From positions 1 through 32,517 of IMG/VR virus record IMGVR_UViG_3300044954_000346: a DNA stretch of 32,517 nucleotides, one strand, 5' to 3'. Below are positions 13,662-26,977 of this stretch, piece by piece. Each line of letters begins with the position of its first letter. The first letter of the stretch is position 1. Made by a program: the position numbers and the translations under genes. The notes beneath the pieces were generated by a model. It saw only the letters and a program-made list of their open reading frames with translations. It did not search any database and was not told the origin of the DNA. The stretch is from a virus.

Positions 13662-14258
13662 TTAGTGTTTGATTTCGAATTGTTCTAAACTAAATGCTTT
13701 TTTGTATTTATCGAAGAGAGAAGCCTCTGAAGCAGAAGTGGTAGCTACTACCGGTTCGGGCTTAATTTCGGCCTTCTCCAATACTTCTTCCACAATAGTT
13801 TCAGATGCTTTTACTTCGGCTGCGACTTCCGCCTTCTCTTTAGAGGCCTTAGCCGCTTTCTTTTTGCTTTTCATAAGAACAGACATTTTCTTACGATAAG
13901 CAGAAAAAATTTCTTCGCTCATCTCTTTGATATCCGAAGCGATGATGGCGCGATCTTCGTCATCCAAATCGTATTCGTTATCGAATGAAGCCATGCGAGT
14001 ATTGAAGGTCTCCTCGATTTCCTTGGCGACTTTAACAGCTTCTAATTCTGCAAGGGTCTTCTGGATTCTCTCGATTTCAGCCCTGAGTTGGGCTTGGGCC
14101 TCCAAAGCAGAACTAAGAGCCTGCTCCTTCTCCTGCTTTTCAGCAGAGAAATGCTCCGAGGCCTTCTTCAATTCTTCTGCGATAAATTCGGTAACAGCAG
14201 AAGCGGAGAGCTCCTTCATGCTCTCGTCATTAATATCTTCAATCTTGCTGATTTTCAT
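13662..14258 (-). CDS. Possible internal-start scaffolding protein (nested)
   Basis: ATG 14258 (MKISKIEDINDES) begins exactly where the protease part ends and the coiled-coil part starts, giving a 198-aa scaffold. The codons just before it (VNKNTINNI) are AT-rich and linker-like, and the DNA reads ATGTAAATAAAAATACGATTAATAATATT before the ATG. No Shine-Dalgarno is seen. Separate translation of scaffold from the same gene is known for lambda C/Nu3 and similar phages; here it is inferred only. Confidence 0.4.
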   Translation of the reverse strand: MKISKIEDINDESMKELSASAVTEFIAEELKKASEHFSAEKQEKEQALSSALEAQAQLRAEIERIQKTLAELEAVKVAKEIEETFNTRMASFDNEYDLDDEDRAIIASDIKEMSEEIFSAYRKKMSVLMKSKKKAAKASKEKAEVAAEVKASETIVEEVLEKAEIKPEPVVATTSASEASLFDKYKKAFSLEQFEIKH

Positions 14259-15095
14259 AATATTATTAATCGTATTTTTATTTACATTATTCTCTTCTAA
14301 ATGGGAAAGATTTTCTACAATTTTTAAAGAAATAACTTCCTCAGCCTTTACTGATTCTACTGCTTTAACTGCGACCCCCTTGACATCGGCAGCCGGATTC
14401 TCGGTCAAACCGATACCCAAAGGCACAACATCAGCTACAACTTTTCTGTAAATAGAGCGTCCGTCTTTCAATTTTCCAGTGCCGCCAAAGGCTCTTAGAT
14501 GATCACTTAATTCACTAATCATTCCGCTATCACAGATGATTTCGGCGTCTTCTAGATTTTTGCTATCGCCATTAATGGCCGCCAAAACGTAGTCGCTAAA
14601 ACCTAATTCCCAGCTAGCTGAAATCTTCTGATAGTTTTCGCTAGTCGGATCATTTGAATCTTCTATTAGTTGGGTAAGTTTATTATTTACAACCTTCCAA
14701 ACCACTCCGCCTAGAGTGATATTAAATGGCCCCTTCATCTCTTTTACCTGATCTTCCGTAAGAGGAAGATCTGAGCCAAACTCGCTAAAGCTTGCCGAAA
14801 GTATTACTCCGACCACTCTTTCTCTATTATGCTCTACGTTAATTGGTTTATTAATGAAATTTTTATATACCCCCGAAGCGGTGGTGGCATCAATTACGTC
14901 GCCGTTCTTATTGACGCGATTAACTACGCAAGCATTAAAAGCAATAGGGAGTAGATCTATATTCTTGGAAATATCAATGTTGGGTACAAAATTACCAACA
15001 TCAATTAAACTTGCTAATGCCAAATATTTATCTTTTTCTTCTGAGACTAACGGCTTAACTACAGAACTAAAAATAGATGTATACTTTGGATTCAT
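13662..15095 (-). CDS. Prohead protease fused to scaffold-like domain
   Basis: The product is 477 aa. The N-terminal half (~40-240) carries the protease signature. INKPINVEHNRERVVGVIL puts the catalytic His at H89, as in the nveHd..vvGv pattern of phage prohead proteases. NYQKISASWELGFSDYVLA places the candidate nucleophile Ser at S159 or S161. Residues ~280-400 are a long Glu/Lys/Ala coiled coil (EKQEKEQALSSALEAQAQLR), followed by a Lys/Ala-rich tail and a short hydrophobic end, typical of scaffolding proteins. The fusion would let the protease remove scaffold during head maturation. An internal ATG at 14258 could make scaffold alone, as in lambda C/Nu3. Confidence 0.85.
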   Translation of the reverse strand: MNPKYTSIFSSVVKPLVSEEKDKYLALASLIDVGNFVPNIDISKNIDLLPIAFNACVVNRVNKNGDVIDATTASGVYKNFINKPINVEHNRERVVGVILSASFSEFGSDLPLTEDQVKEMKGPFNITLGGVVWKVVNNKLTQLIEDSNDPTSENYQKISASWELGFSDYVLAAINGDSKNLEDAEIICDSGMISELSDHLRAFGGTGKLKDGRSIYRKVVADVVPLGIGLTENPAADVKGVAVKAVESVKAEEVISLKIVENLSHLEENNVNKNTINNIMKISKIEDINDESMKELSASAVTEFIAEELKKASEHFSAEKQEKEQALSSALEAQAQLRAEIERIQKTLAELEAVKVAKEIEETFNTRMASFDNEYDLDDEDRAIIASDIKEMSEEIFSAYRKKMSVLMKSKKKAAKASKEKAEVAAEVKASETIVEEVLEKAEIKPEPVVATTSASEASLFDKYKKAFSLEQFEIKH

Positions 15096-16357: not shown

Positions 16358-17746
16358 TTAAGCTATAATATTTTTGGCGACTTCTCCGTGAACATCGGTC
16401 AAACGGAAATCTCTTCCGCTATAACGATAAGTGAGCTTAGTGTGATCGAAGCCCATTAAATGAAGGACGGTAGCGTGTAAATCATGGACGTGCATTCTGT
16501 CTTTTATGACGTTGCCGCCAATCTCATCCGTCTCGCCATATACAGTTCCGCCCTTAACTCCGCCACCAATCAAGACAGAGCTGAAAGCGCGACTCCAGTG
16601 AGAGCGTCCGAAACCATATTGACCGCCAGTGCCATCGCGAGAAGGAGTTCTTCCAAATTCTCCGCTAAGAATAATCAAGGTAGAATCAAGCATTCCTTTA
16701 TTCTTAAGATCTTGAATTAAAGCAGCAATTGGACCATCAACTTGATCTGCGGCGCCCTTTAGAGAGCGGCTGATTTCGTTATGGTTATCCCAGCCACCGG
16801 TCCAAACCTGAACGAAGCGAACACCCTTTTCCACTAGGCGACGAGCCACTAGCATTTGCTTACCCTGAGTAGTCATTCCGTACATTTCGCGCACATTTTG
16901 AGGCTCTTTAGTAATATCAAAAACGTCAGTAGCTTCAGTCTGCATTTTGAACGCTAATTCGAAAGACTCAATTCTCGAATCGAGCGCGGCTTCATTGTTT
17001 AATTTCTTATTATGAGCTTGATTAATTTTATTTAAAAGCTCTAATTGTTTCTTCTGCTCTTCAAGAGTAAGATTTTGGTTATTGATATTCTGAATCATTT
17101 GAGAAACAGAATTCAAAGAAGTGTTAATGCTGGTACCTTGATAAATCCCGGGAAGGAATGAAGCGCCCCAGTTCTTGGCGTCTCCATTACCCCCGGGACG
17201 TAAAGAAATAAAAGCGGGAAGATTTTGATTTATAGAACCTAAACCATAAGAAATCCAACTGCCAAGTGAAGGACGAATAAATCTGAAATTACCAGTATTC
17301 ATTATCAATGTAGCAACTTCATGCGCCGGAACATCCGTTACCATTGACCGAATAACTGCCGCGCTATCAATATGCTCTGCCGTTTTAGCGAAAGCATCGC
17401 TTACTTCGATTCCAGACTTTCCATATTTATTAAACTTAAAAGGAGAGCCACAGGCCAAACCGTTCATATTTGGCAATTTTTCTCCATCGATTTTGTTGAG
17501 GAGAGGTTTTGGATCCCAAGTATCCAAGTGAGATTGACCGCCGCCGAAGAAAATGTGAATTACCCTCTTTGCCTTGACTGGAAAATGTGGCTCCTTTACA
17601 GAAAGAGAACCCGCTAGAGACTCTGTCTGAAGCAGCTGCATTAGGCCCAGCGCCCCCATCCCCATCCCAAACTTATTTAGGAAGCCCCTGCGAGTCAAAA
17701 ATAAATTTTCTTCATTTAAATTATTGTTATCGCAGTAGTTTCTCAT
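16358..17746 (-). CDS. DUF1501 sulfatase-like protein with Tat-like leader
   Basis: The product is 462 aa from ATG 17746; an in-frame upstream extension exists but overlaps the preceding gene more. The N-terminus has TRRGFLNKFGMGMGALGL, a twin-arginine-type leader (R19, R20). DUF1501 landmarks follow in order: KAKRVIHIFFGGGQSHLDTW (~58-77), RSMVTDVPAHEVATLIMNTG, FVQVWTGGWDNHNEI, LIILSGEFGRTPSRDGTGGQ and HVHDLHATVLHLMGFDHTKL, ending YRYSGRDFRLTDVHGEV. The His/Asp/Glu positions fit the alkaline-phosphatase/sulfatase superfamily, but the substrate of DUF1501 is not established. The length is normal and no lesion is seen. It follows the PSD1 gene through one small membrane gene, the pairing common in Planctomycetes and Verrucomicrobia. 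Confidence 0.95.
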   Translation of the reverse strand: MRNYCDNNNLNEENLFLTRRGFLNKFGMGMGALGLMQLLQTESLAGSLSVKEPHFPVKAKRVIHIFFGGGQSHLDTWDPKPLLNKIDGEKLPNMNGLACGSPFKFNKYGKSGIEVSDAFAKTAEHIDSAAVIRSMVTDVPAHEVATLIMNTGNFRFIRPSLGSWISYGLGSINQNLPAFISLRPGGNGDAKNWGASFLPGIYQGTSINTSLNSVSQMIQNINNQNLTLEEQKKQLELLNKINQAHNKKLNNEAALDSRIESFELAFKMQTEATDVFDITKEPQNVREMYGMTTQGKQMLVARRLVEKGVRFVQVWTGGWDNHNEISRSLKGAADQVDGPIAALIQDLKNKGMLDSTLIILSGEFGRTPSRDGTGGQYGFGRSHWSRAFSSVLIGGGVKGGTVYGETDEIGGNVIKDRMHVHDLHATVLHLMGFDHTKLTYRYSGRDFRLTDVHGEVAKNIIA

Positions 17747-17918
17747 TTTTTTTCTTTCTATTCTTCTTTTTATTATTACAGACACATTCCTTTTTGTAGG
17801 ACGGAGGTTGAGCGGGAAAATCCATAAAGTCGTAAATTACCCAACTGACAACTAATAAAGTAACTCCAATAATTAATAACAATTCAACGTTATCGGTCAT
17901 AAGGTTTCCAAAAAACAT
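17727..17918 (-). CDS. Small membrane protein between PSD1 and DUF1501
   Basis: From ATG 17918 the product is 63 aa: MFFGNLMTDNVELLLIIGVT leads into a membrane span (LLLIIGVTLLVVSWVIYDFM), then a Pro-containing linker, a CVC pair and a very basic tail (NNKKKNRKKKNEKLLR). A second ATG at 17900 is possible and would leave the GTGTAA motif 18 nt upstream. It starts 14 nt after the PSD1 stop and overlaps the DUF1501 start by 20 nt. The arrangement (small hydrophobic N-terminus, short Cys pair) resembles the CcoQ/CcoN-adjacent small subunits of cytochrome systems, but that resemblance is weak. Confidence 0.65.
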   Translation of the reverse strand: MFFGNLMTDNVELLLIIGVTLLVVSWVIYDFMDFPAQPPSYKKECVCNNKKKNRKKKNEKLLR

Positions 17919-17932: not shown

Positions 17933-20752
17933 TTAATTTACGAATACCATTTCGTTGCCCATCATTAAAATATGAGCAAATTTTTCCCAAGGAGAGACCT
18001 TGTTTGGTTCGGTCTTAACGGAACTAATATAAGCTAAGGCTGTTTGTATTTCTTCTTGGTTTGGAATTCTCTGATAAATAATATCATAAAGAAAAATAAC
18101 TCGCGCATTATCATTATTCAAAATTTGGAATTCTGGTCTTGAAACTACATTCTTAATTTGCTCGTAAATGATTGGACTATTCATCAAGAATAATGCCTGC
18201 TTAGGGACAGTCGTCTCGAAGCGTCTGCCATTCGTCATGTCTGGATTGGCAAAATCGAATGTCGAAAATAAATCATTCAAATTTCTTCTGTCTATTAAAC
18301 CGTATATAGTTCTGCGGGTAGAATAATGACCGTCTTCTCTGACCAGTAGGTTGTCTGGTTTGCCGCCAATAGATTTATCTAATTTTCCGCCAATGGCTAA
18401 GATAGTGTCTCTTAAAGCCTCGAACTCCAGTCTGAGGATATTCATCTTCCAAAGGAATTTATTATCTGGATCTATTACAGAATAGGCTGCATTATGTAAT
18501 GAAGATTGCTGATACGTTGCGCTCGTCATTATTAACTTATGCATCTTCTTTTGCGACCAGCCCTCCTCAACAAATGTAGAAGCAAGCCAATTCAAAAGCT
18601 CTGGATGAGTTGGTCTTTCCCCTTGCGTACCAAAATCATCTGGAGTCGCAACGATGCCCTTGCCAAAATGATGCTGCCAAATTCTATTAACTATAGTTCT
18701 TGGGGTAAGCGGGTTGTTGGGGTCTATGATTGCCTGCGCCAGCTCTAATCTACCACTTCCGTTCGTGAAGGGCTTTTCCGTTTTATCAATTAGCTCCAAA
18801 AATCTTCTAGGAACTTCTGCGCCCAATGTCTTTGGATCTCCTTTCACAAAGACTTTAGAGTTTTCCGCGACTACATCAGAAACTACCATCGCCCTAGCGG
18901 GTGCTCCATCGTGATTACCTTCTAATTCGAGAAGTTTATTTTCCCTGTTACTAATTTCATTATTAAATCTCATCATCTTCTGGTTATTTTCAAGAAATCT
19001 TTGGAAGTTTGTCTTATCAATGTCGAGCGGCCCAGAAACAAATACGGCCCTTCTAAACTCTTCAGCGTCCGAATTAGGTAACTCCGTCGCTTGCGGGCTC
19101 TTTGCTTTTAAAATTCTCCACTGCTTATCCGCTTCAATTAGGGCGTATTGATAAGCTGCGGCAACCCCAAGAAATGAAGTAGTAAATTGAGGAGTTAAAT
19201 ACCCCTTAATAAATCCGTTTGGTTCCATCTCGGAAAGATTTTTGCTATATTGAGCAAAATCATTAGGTTTTGTTTGTAAAGCTAAAATAAGTGGCCCCCA
19301 CACCAATTCACTCACAGCTTTTTTCTTCTTAGCTTCCTTTTCACCTTTCGCGCCAACCTTTAACCCTTTGAGGAGATTTTCTTTCGGCAAAAGAAATCGC
19401 GACCATTTTTGTAAAAGTTGTTCGTTTACTTGATTCTCTCTTATATAATTTTGCCTTTTGCTTTCGCTAATCATCTTGAGGTCATATAATGACGAAAGTA
19501 CTTTTATGGTATTAGTTTTATAATTAAAGAAGGCGTTATTATAATTAGTAGTAATAAATAACTTCAATTGGGCTTCAAGTTTTTCCTTTTCTTTTAGGTA
19601 TTCAGAATAATCTTTTTGAGGGGGGATATAAATAATTGGCTTATCTTTGGGTTCGATTATGCTATTAAATACTCCATGTAAAGCATAATAATCTTTCGTT
19701 GAAATCGGGTCGAATTTATGATCGTGACAGCGAGCGCAAGAGACAGTCAAGGACATGAACCCCTTGGAGATGGCGTCGATTCTATCATCAATAATATCAT
19801 TCTTGTCATTGTTCCTTTTGCCCACGGTTAAGAAACCAACTCCCGCCACGGTCCAGTTGTTTGTTTTTTCTTTTAATTGATCTCCGGCAATCTGCTCTAG
19901 AACAAAACGGTTAAATGGCTTATCTTGGTTGAAAGAACCAATTACATAATCACGATAAGCCCACGCGTAAGGATAAGTGGTTTCGTTTCTCCGCTGCGGA
20001 TTTCCACTAGTATCTGAATATCTAGCTATATCAAGCCAATGGCGGCCCCACTTCTCTCCATAATGAGGAGAGCTTAACAGTCTATCAATAATTTTTTCAA
20101 AAGCATTAGAGGAGTCGTCTTTTAAGAAGTTTTGGATTTCTACTTCTGATGGAGGCAAACCAGTTAAATCAAAGGTAGCTCTTCTTATTAAAGTTCTTTT
20201 ATCCGTAGGGTTAGAAGGGCTTAATCTATTTTGTTCAAGTTTGCTGGCGATAAAATTATCTATGGGATTTTTCACCCAAGTATCAAAGGAGGTTCTTGGC
20301 GTCGCTGGCTTTGAAATCGGTTGAAAGCTCCAATGAGTTTTAGCTAATTCATCTAACTTGCCATAACTTTTACTAACTCCCCCCACCCTTGGATCGGGTG
20401 CCCCCATTTTAATCCAAATATAAAAATCTTGAACTACATTATCTGGAAGCTTTTTGCCCTGTGGAGGCATCTGAATGTCTGGATCTTTGTAAGTTAAAGC
20501 CTTGTAAAGCAAGCTCTCTTCCGGCTTACCAACAATTATCGAAGGGCCAGTCTCTCCGCCTTTTAATAGGTTGGCTTTATTATCAAGTAATAATTTGCCT
20601 TTAACTTTTTCTGATTGTGAACTATGGCATTTATAACAATCATTTACTAAAACGGGGCGAATTTTCTCTTCGAAGAACTTAACTTGATCTAAAGTTAACT
20701 GTTGTCCAAAACAATTAAAACTAATCAATAAAATAAAAAAAATATTCTTCAT
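17933..20752 (-). CDS. PSCyt1-PSCyt2-PSD1 (DUF1549/DUF1553) haem-binding secreted protein
   Basis: The product is 939 aa. It begins with a signal peptide (MKNIFFILLISFNCFG). The PSCyt1 domain (~25-125) has the c-type haem motif C39-Y-K-C42-H43 and PDIQMPPQG, with M95 the likely axial ligand. PSCyt2/DUF1549 (~140-360) shows HWSFQPISKP, RRATFDLTGLPPS, YGEKWGRHWLDIARYSDTSG and a second CARCH motif (C339, C342, H343) followed by DHKFDPI. PSD1/DUF1553 (~640-900) shows NPLTPRTIVNRIWQHHFGKG, DFGTQGERPTHPELLNWLA and RRTIYGLIDRRNLNDLFSTF. Length and domain order are normal and no frameshift is seen. The family is abundant in Planctomycetes and Verrucomicrobia, encoded beside DUF1501, and of unproven biochemical role. 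It requires host cytochrome c maturation. Confidence 0.96.
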   Translation of the reverse strand: MKNIFFILLISFNCFGQQLTLDQVKFFEEKIRPVLVNDCYKCHSSQSEKVKGKLLLDNKANLLKGGETGPSIIVGKPEESLLYKALTYKDPDIQMPPQGKKLPDNVVQDFYIWIKMGAPDPRVGGVSKSYGKLDELAKTHWSFQPISKPATPRTSFDTWVKNPIDNFIASKLEQNRLSPSNPTDKRTLIRRATFDLTGLPPSEVEIQNFLKDDSSNAFEKIIDRLLSSPHYGEKWGRHWLDIARYSDTSGNPQRRNETTYPYAWAYRDYVIGSFNQDKPFNRFVLEQIAGDQLKEKTNNWTVAGVGFLTVGKRNNDKNDIIDDRIDAISKGFMSLTVSCARCHDHKFDPISTKDYYALHGVFNSIIEPKDKPIIYIPPQKDYSEYLKEKEKLEAQLKLFITTNYNNAFFNYKTNTIKVLSSLYDLKMISESKRQNYIRENQVNEQLLQKWSRFLLPKENLLKGLKVGAKGEKEAKKKKAVSELVWGPLILALQTKPNDFAQYSKNLSEMEPNGFIKGYLTPQFTTSFLGVAAAYQYALIEADKQWRILKAKSPQATELPNSDAEEFRRAVFVSGPLDIDKTNFQRFLENNQKMMRFNNEISNRENKLLELEGNHDGAPARAMVVSDVVAENSKVFVKGDPKTLGAEVPRRFLELIDKTEKPFTNGSGRLELAQAIIDPNNPLTPRTIVNRIWQHHFGKGIVATPDDFGTQGERPTHPELLNWLASTFVEEGWSQKKMHKLIMTSATYQQSSLHNAAYSVIDPDNKFLWKMNILRLEFEALRDTILAIGGKLDKSIGGKPDNLLVREDGHYSTRRTIYGLIDRRNLNDLFSTFDFANPDMTNGRRFETTVPKQALFLMNSPIIYEQIKNVVSRPEFQILNNDNARVIFLYDIIYQRIPNQEEIQTALAYISSVKTEPNKVSPWEKFAHILMMGNEMVFVN

Positions 20753-20772: not shown

Positions 20773-20854
20773 TTAAGTATTCATACCTCCATACCCTTGA
20801 TTCGCGCCATTCATCCTTCCTCTAGCGTTACTTAAGAAGCCCATTATTATAGCC
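20773..20854 (-). pseudogene. Out-of-frame extension of the Gly/Asn/Met-rich protein
   Basis: Past the stop of the 262-aa gene, a different frame continues the same composition: MGFLSNARGRMNGANQGYGG then MNT and TAA at 20773. It looks like the original C-terminus detached by a single-base frameshift (or a sequencing error) near 20850. Confidence 0.45.
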
Positions 20855-21616
20855 GCCCATGCCGCCATAATTATAGAATTGACCATTCATTCCCCACGCG
20901 GGGGAAGATTGATATATATTGCCGCCGTTAGGGATATTATTATAGCTGCCCATGCCATAGTTTGGATTTCCATATGCTCCTCCTTGTTGATTAAAATTAA
21001 GTTGAGAATTATAACCACCACCCACGTCGCCCATCTGACTACCATAATTACCCATGTTAAATCCCCCCATATTCATTCTACCCATTCCACCATTCATGCC
21101 CATTGCGCCCATTGGGTTCATTGAATAATCCCTTTGTGCTCTTGCCCCCATTCTATATTCTCTTAGTAAACTTTCGTATGGATTAACCATTTGCCAGCCA
21201 GAATTTCTCCAAATCGTATTGTTTAGATTCTCTATTCCTATTGCGGTCTGAAGCGCTGCCCCCCCCATCCCGATTTGAGGATTTTGTTGGGGAGGTTGGC
21301 TTACTGGCGGAGCGGGGGCGGGCAGCTGAATGGCGGGCCGAACTACGGGTTGATTATTTACGGGTTGATTTTGTTGAGGGGGCGCATTTGTAGATTGAGC
21401 CACATTAAACCTTGCACCGAACGATCTATCCCACCAAGCTTTCCACGCCGAAGCCATGCTGTCTCTATTGGAAGAGATTATCGCTTGCCAAGAATTTTTA
21501 TCTCTAAGATTTAATCTTGAGTAATTAAAAACGGGCGGGATATTAGTAGAAATCAAATTTGTTTGCTGCCCCCAAGAAATGAAGACGGCAAACAAAAATG
21601 TTAAAATATACCGCAT
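20828..21616 (-). CDS. Secreted Gly/Asn/Met-rich low-complexity protein
   Basis: The product is 262 aa. MRYILTFLFAVFISWGQQTN is a Sec signal peptide ending in the GQQ type also seen in the PSD1 protein. Residues ~40-75 are a short folded piece with many Trp (SWQAIISSNRDSMASAWKAW). A Pro/Gln linker follows, and residues ~155-262 are Gly/Asn/Met/Tyr-rich (MNMGGFNMGNYGSQMGD), resembling surface-coat or adhesive proteins. A good Shine-Dalgarno (GAGGTGGGATAA) precedes ATG 21616. It lies 76 nt before the PSD1 gene. The family is not recognised. The C-terminus may be frameshifted, because the composition continues in another frame. Confidence 0.72.
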   Translation of the reverse strand: MRYILTFLFAVFISWGQQTNLISTNIPPVFNYSRLNLRDKNSWQAIISSNRDSMASAWKAWWDRSFGARFNVAQSTNAPPQQNQPVNNQPVVRPAIQLPAPAPPVSQPPQQNPQIGMGGAALQTAIGIENLNNTIWRNSGWQMVNPYESLLREYRMGARAQRDYSMNPMGAMGMNGGMGRMNMGGFNMGNYGSQMGDVGGGYNSQLNFNQQGGAYGNPNYGMGSYNNIPNGGNIYQSSPAWGMNGQFYNYGGMGGYNNGLLK

Positions 21617-21626
21617 TTATCCCACC

Positions 21627-21947
21627 TCAGTTTGAAGAGATTGGAGGCCGCGTATTTTGTGCGGCGCCTCCAGAAGTAGCGTTGACTGTAGGGCGGCGCA
21701 AACCTACTCTGATTACGCTTCTACTTGCGGCTGGTCGACTAGCGATAGCCCCAAAAGAATTAGCCGCAGAAGTGGCTGAAAAGCCTCGAGGGCTTATAGA
21801 TTTCGAAACGTGTTCAATTCTCTTGGCGGTCCCAGCCCCCTCTCTCGGAGCTAGTTTCTCACTGATGGATTGTCCAGATAATTTACCAACAAATAAAAAA
21901 GAGAAGCTTGCTAGTAATACGATTATTGATTTTGTTATGTTTTTCAT
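21627..21947 (-). CDS. Short secreted basic protein, 106 aa
   Basis: MKNITKSIIVLLASFSFLFVGKLSGQ is a Sec signal peptide. The mature ~80 residues are basic, Ser/Ala/Arg-rich and low in order (FSATSAANSFGAIASRPAAS), ending TRPPISSN. I recognise no domain. ATG 21947 lies 4 nt after the end of the DUF1501 remnant and the stop lies 10 nt before the next ATG, so the gene sits inside the same transcript. It may be a co-secreted partner of the Gly/Asn/Met-rich protein. Confidence 0.65.
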   Translation of the reverse strand: MKNITKSIIVLLASFSFLFVGKLSGQSISEKLAPREGAGTAKRIEHVSKSISPRGFSATSAANSFGAIASRPAASRSVIRVGLRRPTVNATSGGAAQNTRPPISSN

Positions 21948-21951
21948 GATT

Positions 21952-22232
21952 TTATATTAAGAGTTTAGTTTCTATGTCTGTGTTGTCAACTAATCTGATT
22001 GGACGGCCGCCCGAAGCTAGTGATTCTCCTCTAGGATCGATTCCTATTAAATGATATATCGTGGAAGCATATTTGTCAAGAGTTAATAGCTCTAAATTAC
22101 ATTCTTGGCTTTCCCTTCTTTACTCAGCACTGAAGCTCTTTCCGCTTTTAGAATCTGAGGTAAAAAAATACCTAAGAACGAAAGTAATCCAACCCCTATG
22201 AAGCCCTTTCTTGATAAATTAAGTTTTTGCAT
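21952..22232 (-). pseudogene. Internally deleted DUF1501 gene (N- and C-terminal ends only)
   Basis: From ATG 22232 the frame reads MQKLNLSRKGFIGVGLLSFL then a leader-like segment and KAKNVI before TAG. This is the leader and first strand of a DUF1501 protein (compare KAKRVIHIFF in the intact copy). Shifted by one base, the next frame reads LELLTLDKYASTIYHLIGID, then PRGESLASGGRPIRLVDN and ends at TAA 21952. This matches the C-terminal block of the other common DUF1501 subtype (xDxYATIYHxLGIDPxxxxxxxxGRPIxLVD). About 350 central codons with the catalytic region are gone. The remnant is not a copy of the intact DUF1501 here, since its C-terminus belongs to a different subtype. Confidence 0.85.
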
Positions 22233-22515
22233 AGATTTTTGATTTGTTTTCTTTTTCTAGCTCTTTCAATAATTCGTCTATTGCTTCTTTTTGTTTTTTT
22301 ATTAAATCATTTTGTCTATCTATGGTTTCTTTGTTTGACTGCCGCTCTTTCATTAAAATATATCTTTCGGTCTCAGATTTTTTTAATTTATATCTATATC
22401 CAGAATCCATTACTCCAACTACAAAAATAAGAACAATCCCGAACAGAAAAATAAAAAAAGACTGATCCTTACAAAGATCATCCCAAAAGTCTTTTATTCT
22501 CTTTAGAATATCCAT
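22219..22515 (-). CDS. Membrane protein with coiled coil (spanin-like topology)
   Basis: The product is 98 aa. A short N-terminal amphipathic stretch (MDILKRIKDFWDDLCKDQS) leads into one membrane span (FFIFLFGIVLIFVVGVMDSG), then a ~50-residue charged coiled coil (NDLIKKQKEAIDELLKELEK). An N-terminal anchor with a coiled coil outside is the layout of phage inner-membrane spanins (Rz), but no partner lipoprotein is seen nearby, so this is only one option. Its end overlaps the start of the DUF1501 remnant by 14 nt, the same coupling seen at the intact DUF1501, so it may belong to the cargo. The start ATG 22515 has no clear Shine-Dalgarno. Confidence 0.65.
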   Translation of the reverse strand: MDILKRIKDFWDDLCKDQSFFIFLFGIVLIFVVGVMDSGYRYKLKKSETERYILMKERQSNKETIDRQNDLIKKQKEAIDELLKELEKENKSKIYAKT

Positions 22516-25113: not shown

Positions 25114-26964
25114 CTAAACTATGCTTGCATGAAGAATGCTGGCCAAATAATCATCAACTTGATGTTGAAGCGCGATCTCCCTAATCATTGAGATTCTTTC
25201 TGGGTTTTGATCAATTGGTTTTTCTAAATACTGCTGGATTTTAGAATTCCAATCTTGGGGCGTCTCATTTGAAATAATTACGCAGGCGATTTGTTCGCAA
25301 ACTGTTTTTTGTTCTTCAGAAAGCTTTTTGAGTTTATGCTTTTTCTTCAAAGAGCCTTCTACGTTCTTAAATAATTCCTGAGCCAAACTCATGTTATTGG
25401 CAACTTTCGACAAACTGAACTTGGCGGAGACGTTCGAGGCGGGAGCTCGTCTCATCGAAACGTTTTCTACTCCAACTGGTCTCCCAGCTCCGTTCTCGGA
25501 GGTATTCTTGCCGCCGATCAACGGATCATATAATCCTTCGTTTTTCAAGTTCACGAACTCTCTTTGTGATTCAATGGAAGATTCTCTATCCGGCAATCTC
25601 CCCGTCTCAATTGCATTTATACCTTCTGACGGAGTTAAAACGCCCAATTCTACTAGGCGATTGTAAATCCTCATCATGTTGGTATCTTCTGATAATGTGA
25701 CTTTATCAAAATAAGGGATGGGATAAGTTTTAAAACCTAACTGTTTTGACACTCTTCTAATTTCTGGTATTACGAATTCATTTATAAAAGCTTCGCGAGC
25801 TTGAGTTAGTCTGGCAATAAACACTTGAATCTTGCCTTGCTGATTAGAAAACTTTTCATCTCCGACTAATATGTTGTTTAATCCCTGCTGAATGTCTCTC
25901 TCCACCACCTCGTACTTCTTAGAATCCAAGAGAGAGGCGATATTCGGCACAACAAATTCAGCCTTCGTAGTATAATCCGCGATCAAAACTCTTCCAACCG
26001 ACTCATTCTCGAAAAGTTTTTGCATCGCTTCTAAATTCTTGGGATTAACTCCGCCGTCTTCGGGCTTTGACCCCATCGTCACTAATAGGATTGACTGCTG
26101 CATCGTTCTCGCTACGGCCATATCCATCTTTTTCATTTCCGCTTTCCAGTTAATATCTTCTAAAACAGGATATCCCATGGGCACAGAAAACGGCTCATAG
26201 TCTTGCTTCTTATAAAAAACCGAAGAAATTTTACCCTGTTCCAGTGGGAGGAGAACTGCTGAATTAGATTTGCTAGAAATTTTTTTCCTGCTTTCTTCAT
26301 CTAAATTATTAACAATTTCAGTATCCTCTTCCGTCTGTGGGAATCTAAGTCTAGCCAATTCGTAATCGGTGAGAACTTTATAATACTTTCCAGAAAAGAA
26401 TGAGGCAGACCCACCCAATTGAATATCCGCCGGATTTAAAATAACATATCTAATGGGCAAGGTAATCTGTGAACTTATCTTTTCGTCAGCGTAAACCTGA
26501 GTAATCTTTAGGGCGTCTTTACCGCTCACGTTGGCATCAAATCTATAAATAAAAACATTACCAGAACGATAATATTCTCTGAAAAACTTATCCTGCAAAG
26601 CCCAGATGTTTATTTTTTTAAAAAGGGCCGAGAAAAAATCTCTTGATTTTTTGTTGCCCCCTTTAAAGTAAATATCGCTCACCGAAAATTCAGTCATTAA
26701 ATCGACTACGTTTCTAAATATCGCAAAATTATAATAAGCTTTTTGGCAAAGAGAAACTGCCTCTTTTACGTCGATATTGCTTTTATTCAATCCGCCAGAG
26801 GAATATTTAAAGGGGACAAGTCCATCGTCAATGTTAGAAAAACGATTAGTTCTTTCTATCGTCGACGCGACGTTTCTGCGCGTTTTGGTAGAAGTAGCCG
26901 AGCTAGCAGTTGAGACCATCATCGGCGCCGCATTTTCCACAATTTTCTTGCCTTTTTCCTTCAT
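25114..26964 (-). CDS. Portal protein (head-tail connector)
   Basis: The product is 616 aa from ATG 26964; a TTG four codons upstream is less likely. It lies directly after the terminase and before structural genes, as portal genes do. The body has portal-like pieces: RYVILNPADIQLGGSASFFS (~165-185), MAVARTMQQSILLVTMGSKP, and the helical LARLTQAREAFINEFVIPEI near the clip/stem region (ASLLDSKKYEVVERDIQQGL before it). The last ~120 residues are helical and lysine-rich. Portal is inferred from position, size and these segments; it would form the dodecameric DNA channel at one capsid vertex. A GTGTAA motif lies 13 nt before the ATG. Confidence 0.85.
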   Translation of the reverse strand: MKEKGKKIVENAAPMMVSTASSATSTKTRRNVASTIERTNRFSNIDDGLVPFKYSSGGLNKSNIDVKEAVSLCQKAYYNFAIFRNVVDLMTEFSVSDIYFKGGNKKSRDFFSALFKKINIWALQDKFFREYYRSGNVFIYRFDANVSGKDALKITQVYADEKISSQITLPIRYVILNPADIQLGGSASFFSGKYYKVLTDYELARLRFPQTEEDTEIVNNLDEESRKKISSKSNSAVLLPLEQGKISSVFYKKQDYEPFSVPMGYPVLEDINWKAEMKKMDMAVARTMQQSILLVTMGSKPEDGGVNPKNLEAMQKLFENESVGRVLIADYTTKAEFVVPNIASLLDSKKYEVVERDIQQGLNNILVGDEKFSNQQGKIQVFIARLTQAREAFINEFVIPEIRRVSKQLGFKTYPIPYFDKVTLSEDTNMMRIYNRLVELGVLTPSEGINAIETGRLPDRESSIESQREFVNLKNEGLYDPLIGGKNTSENGAGRPVGVENVSMRRAPASNVSAKFSLSKVANNMSLAQELFKNVEGSLKKKHKLKKLSEEQKTVCEQIACVIISNETPQDWNSKIQQYLEKPIDQNPERISMIREIALQHQVDDYLASILHASIV

Positions 26965-26977
26965 AGGTCTAATCAAG

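Follow-up and report, generated by a model that had tools for sequence, protein, structure and literature searches.

The minus-strand segment between positions 21952 and 22232 is very probably a dead gene, namely a type-2 DUF1501 gene cut by an internal deletion. The window, which denotes here the whole stretch of DNA analysed (32,517 nucleotides), is a 32.5-kb uncultivated virus record in which a terminase, a portal protein and PhoH were recognised by PHROGs. Two DUF1501 subtypes are found in phage contigs and are named in this analysis type 1, like the intact gene of the window at 16358–17785, and type 2. Both ends of a type-2 gene are present in the segment, in the correct order and in different frames, and full-length relatives exist in other phages. 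Since the full-length gene is still found in other viruses, the remnant can be considered as an ordinary dead gene. Phages are known to carry inactivated auxiliary metabolic genes (pseudogenes), and the remnant would resemble these in that a phage carried a host-type enzyme gene which later became inactive.

In the scenario that we favour, the phage or an ancestor would have carried a complete type-2 DUF1501 gene of ~420 codons directly behind a spanin-like gene. The enzyme that it encoded would have been exported, would have had the alkaline phosphatase/sulfatase fold and would have come on top of the type-1 DUF1501 that is still intact, encoded with its partner PSCyt-PSD1 1–5 kb downstream. 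An internal deletion of ~1 kb, whose length is not divisible by three, would have taken the catalytic body, beginning in the first beta strand and stopping shortly ahead of the last helix, and would have left the ends fused out of frame, and the only product still possible would be a leader peptide of 46 residues. We infer that the deletion was single, the order of these events in time, and that the phage could do without the type-2 gene because of the type-1 gene.

Architecture, subtype and decay of the remnant

What is left of the gene consists of two blocks, listed here with the neighbouring spanin candidate:

22219–22515, minus strand: Rz-like inner-membrane spanin candidate (PHROG 9841, E=1.7e-4; PHROG 1152, E=1.4e-3)
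22092–22232, minus strand: N-block, leader and start of the first strand, KAKNVI (profile positions 2–42, blastp, leader alignment)
22090–22098, minus strand: deletion junction zone, ~331 codons absent (block positions, profile positions)
21952–22092, minus strand: C-block, last helix and last strands in a shifted frame with its own stop (profile positions 374–423, blastp to phage L144)

The N-block is a 46-codon open reading frame which runs from an ATG at 22232 to a TAG at 22094–22092 and ends in KAKNVI. The C-block has no start codon of its own; its reading frame is open from 22119, its conserved portion extends from 22092 to 21955 and its stop codon lies at 21952–21954. Its translation, read on the minus strand from 22092 to the stop at 21952, is ELLTLDKYASTIYHLIGIDPRGESLASGGRPIRLVDNTDIETKLLI. 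Both blocks are collinear and touch each other with a frame change of -1/+2, and the middle is absent from the contig, which is the arrangement of a pseudogene generated by internal deletion (ends collinear, adjacent and out of frame, middle gone). This agrees with the original prediction, which had described the two ends of a second DUF1501 gene, a leader and a KAKNVI strand followed out of frame by a C-terminal block, and had placed the deletion point near 22095. It had also announced the loss of ~350 codons with all catalytic blocks; the figure has to be lowered to ~331 profile positions (43–373), while the loss of the motifs stands, as the conserved motifs of the catalytic body (HGEAAHERGTHN, GWDHH, EFGRTP and GRDHW) all lie in the absent part (alignment A1) and neither GWDHH, EFGRTP nor GRDHW occurs in the remnant.

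The profile check proposed at the outset, with Pfam PF07394, failed in its original form, as it gave 14.9 bits and E=0.015 for the C-block, under the curated cut-off of 27 bits, and left the N-block unmatched. Because Pfam is too weak for the ends of the remnant, a better profile was needed, and one specific to the subtype (100 non-redundant phage type-2 DUF1501 proteins, length 424) was used to scan, with all filters off, the 598 pieces that a six-frame translation of the window yields at a minimum length of 25 residues. Of these, three passed: the intact type-1 DUF1501 ranked first with 304 bits, the C-block second (E=4.1e-8, profile positions 374–423 of 424) and the N-block third (E=1.9e-4, positions 2–42 of 424), the next piece having an E-value of 0.035. 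A blastp search was furthermore carried out on 293 DUF1501 proteins, made of 41 type-1 and 171 type-2 viral proteins (duplicates included) and 81 type-2 host proteins; L-numbers designate the fetched viral or host loci compared here. The C-block reached 57.8 bits with phage L144 (type 2) versus 28.5 bits with the best type-1 protein, and the N-block 40.4 bits with the host type-2 protein L274, every match of the latter block being of type 2. Identity to L144 amounts to 16/39 for the N-block and 26/46 for the C-block. The homology of both ends to DUF1501 (PF07394) members is thus found by profile, blastp, tree and leader alignment. A chance similarity, with neither block related to DUF1501, would fit the Pfam result taken alone, but it is refuted by blastp and by the window-wide ranking of two blocks that are correctly ordered and touching, and its probability is practically nil.

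As both blocks match type 2 and the intact gene is of type 1, the remnant comes from an independent gene which lost its middle, in line with the prediction that its C-terminal type differs from that of the intact DUF1501. Judging from its sequence, it is a fragment descended from the DUF1501 family and no working member of it. Like the type-2 DUF1501 proteins of phage L144 and of Verrucomicrobiota/Planctomycetota genomes, it displays the leader SR(R/K)xF..GLLxxLGxxLPQ, the KAKNVI strand and the C-terminal TIYHLIGIDPR...GGRPIR..N; unlike them, it has lost the codons bearing all conserved catalytic motifs, and its leader has RK instead of RR and is more hydrophobic. With the type-1 DUF1501 of the same phage, it shares family, fold, strand and interval but not the subgroup.

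An assembly artefact, in which the gene is complete and only the contig is missing its middle, is very unlikely. Within the window, the junction 22-mer has no second occurrence even when 3 mismatches are allowed, and no repeat of at least 16 bases between 15600 and 23000 touches the junction, so that no repeat there would mislead an assembler; moreover, the leader of the N-block carries changes unseen in the intact genes tested. Such an artefact is nevertheless favoured by the fact that the deletion is known from a single metagenome contig and that the junction 30-mer matches no other viral contig searched. Setting an artefact aside, as was done in the original prediction, goes further than these data allow. 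Nor is an erosion over many generations supported as it was put forward, since a single deletion is no proof of long residence, and the residence of such genes in phages appears better shown by the trees described below than by the deletion.

The remnant departs from 11 of the 27 conserved columns (conservation in 80% or more of the intact rows) versus a mean of 1.8 over 141 intact rows, only one of which shows as many as 11 departures. This excess lends modest support to a relaxed selection on the remnant. Its nearest intact kin, L135 and L144, show 6 departures each; since they also depart at conserved columns, the deletion is left undated. The identity of the C-block to L144 exceeds that of L178 to L144, which is lower (21/46), and the C-block search returned no close copy of this block in viral contigs. 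A very fresh deletion, compatible with the open frames, was considered as well and is weakened by how often the remnant departs from conserved columns.

Genome setting and the variable interval

The remnant lies in a cargo-bearing interval bordered by the portal gene and by a conserved gene labelled 'pro' in this analysis:

13662–15095, minus strand: 'pro', conserved gene preceding the putative capsid gene, one border of the interval (no PHROG match)
16358–17785, minus strand: intact type-1 DUF1501, alkaline phosphatase/sulfatase fold, twin-arginine-like leader (PF07394, E=3.1e-135)
17933–20752, minus strand: PSCyt1-PSCyt2(DUF1549)-PSD1(DUF1553) protein, DUF1501-family partner gene (PF07635, PF07583, PF07587)
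20828–21616, minus strand: Met/Asn/Gly-rich ORF that looks secreted, no relatives among the fetched loci
21627–21947, minus strand: 106-aa ORF with a signal-like N-terminus, without relatives in the fetched loci
25114–26976, minus strand: portal protein, other border of the interval (PHROG 16240, E=6e-5)

The model of the intact type-1 protein aligns with PafA over 281 residues with a Z of 16.1 and an rmsd of 4.6 (VIA-align), which corresponds to the alkaline phosphatase/ENPP/sulfatase fold; as its mean pLDDT is only 67, the model was used for the fold class alone. PSD1 is located within the fetched flank of 52/80 host type-2, 11/12 host type-1 and 6/80 viral type-2 loci. According to PMC5615132, the PSCyt-PSD genes of Verrucomicrobia are of unknown function and often lie near sulfatase genes. 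An Asn/Gln/Phe-rich secreted-looking protein (L144:11438–11938) is encoded near the type-2 DUF1501 of L144 and recalls, by likeness of composition only, the ORF at 20828–21616 near the remnant.

At least 599 stretches of viral contigs contain relatives of the terminase, and none of the 20 best of the 43 matches in named phages exceeds 29% identity or covers more than 60% of the protein. The portal-to-pro interval measures ~10 kb in the window and 0.43 to 9.7 kb in the 79 relatives spanning the portal gene to that at 13662–15095, none of which has a DUF1501 or PSD1 gene in this interval. It behaves as a variable slot of differing gene content (L007, L009, L194, L201, L206, L236 and others), with genes for spanin-like, lipoprotein-like, endolysin-like and protease-like proteins (names given by eye).

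When the 163 loci of the clade (2.26 Mb) were scanned with the type-1 and type-2 profiles, only L085 and L178/L179 matched, and the other 160 contained neither a DUF1501 gene nor a further remnant. L085 is a related phage with a type-1 DUF1501 and PSD1 in the same interval. L178 is a distant relative (terminase ~50% for L178/L179) whose full-length type-2 gene stands directly behind the portal gene, four genes away from the site of the remnant; the search for related phages with a full-length gene was hence successful as to the gene, not as to the exact position, and this lack of a close relative with a complete copy in the place of the remnant counts against the favoured scenario. Given the absence of DUF1501 from the other 160 loci, a two-gene ancestor of this lineage is something we infer and do not see. 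The idea that the cargo once held two DUF1501 genes receives support from the 19 fetched loci, or 16 distinct contigs (one of them, L171, doubtful), which carry both subtypes.

Elsewhere in the window, a Group I catalytic intron (4932–5214, minus strand; Rfam RF00028, 77.5 bits, full-length model match) lies in the virion gene region and overlaps the 3' end of the ORF at 5177–6742, and a gene running off the start of the window (1–480, minus strand) encodes long collagen-like Gly-Pro-Ala repeats.

The leader peptide and its spanin neighbour

The leader of the remnant (SRKGF) has RK where 131/131 intact type-2 leaders with the R-[RK]-x-F motif have RR, and its best 17-residue hydrophobicity is 2.07 versus a maximum of 1.71 in these 131 leaders. 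It therefore does not display the RR before a moderately hydrophobic stretch that characterises twin-arginine leaders. The remaining 11 of the 142 intact rows fall outside the motif test (3 with RR and another residue at the F position, 3 with KR or RN, 5 with a read-through 5' extension), and the occurrence of KR in L133 and of RN in L164 and L169 indicates that the twin arginine is not universal.

Small phage membrane peptides occur in lysis cassettes, and the ORF of the remnant is similar to them by its 46 residues, its single hydrophobic segment and its ATG, which is overlapped by 14 bases by the 3' end of the spanin candidate. An alternative is then that the 46-codon ORF was kept and re-used as such a peptide, only the C-block being dead, an explanation which the RK and the hydrophobicity exceeding that of all 131 intact leaders would suit and which we regard as quite unlikely. 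Relatives do have a small membrane ORF at this place (L201, overlap 14; L202, overlap 26; L206, overlap 4; L211, gap 120), and one is also seen by eye at the spanin-like gene of L194 and L200. However, the proteins of the relatives are unrelated to the leader of the remnant and bear their membrane segment at the C-terminus, and a spanin-like ORF is found by the rule used in only 7/44 intervals, window included. Unlike lysis-cassette peptides, the remnant ORF has the sequence of a DUF1501 leader, and the likeness holds by position and overlap alone. Furthermore, the changes in the leader may predate the deletion or result from drift, and intact rows can also dispense with the twin arginine. It is similarly doubtful, to the same degree, that the deletion freed an export leader which, now more hydrophobic and no longer bearing a twin-arginine signal, replaced the small membrane protein of some relatives; if this were true, a phage lysis peptide would have arisen from a host-derived enzyme. 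As the endolysin-like protein of L007 has no counterpart in the window (best E=2), a complete lysis cassette is not claimed. A dead gene remains our preferred reading.

DUF1501 genes in phages and hosts

A search of viral contigs with the intact type-1 protein gave no matches, probably because the peptide patterns were too specific, and the viral relatives were found via PSD1 (28 loci, L082–L109) and via the type-2 alignment (162 DUF1501 stretches; L110–L189). In the type-1 tree, built without the long-branch rows L171 and L108, the intact gene groups with phages L082 and L083 (100/99), then with L085 and L104 (97/98). Its phage kin are 67–68% identical to it versus 57% for the closest host gene found (strict limit, 5 of 115 genomes with a match). 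The type-2 tree comprises 142 intact rows, 78 from hosts and 64 from phages, host sampling being limited to the best 80 of 232 rows from a pattern search. The phage/host label changes 6 times along this tree versus 47 by shuffling. The joined row of the remnant, a long branch with only 20% of the columns, groups with phages L135 and L144 (SH-aLRT 92), inside the phage set. Judging from the homologues, the hosts would be Verrucomicrobiota or Planctomycetota.

No internal stop was found in any of the 58/58 DUF1501 matches, which are spread on 38/43 viral contigs; the five contigs with no DUF1501 match are the fragment L095 and four clade phages included as controls (L003, L006, L016 and L023). 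Between close phage copies, dN/dS is 0.02–0.09 in the 5/7 pairs with a measurable dS, among which is one PSD1 pair; two further pairs are saturated. The absence of internal stops and the low dN/dS indicate that phage copies are normally kept working, and since intact copies are under selection, the loss observed here is a real departure.

By tblastn, neither DUF1501 nor PSD1 was found in 50,697 named phage records, so the carried enzymes look undescribed in named phages. In a table of PMC5418858, a 61-aa protein from phage ZC03 is given a single weak CDD match to DUF1501; apart from this entry, the parts of the literature consulted gave no account of phage-carried DUF1501 genes. The enzymes form phage-only clades and occur, with a cytochrome-type partner, in many different uncultivated phages. 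As a dead gene, the remnant documents both gain and loss of exported sulfatase-fold enzymes within a large uncultivated phage group, and a phage in which one of two copies was lost offers a natural experiment on copy redundancy. Finally, the type-1 DUF1501 of L098 (12331–13709) is in two pieces near its C-terminus, which may mean either that another copy is broken or that the sequence contains an error.
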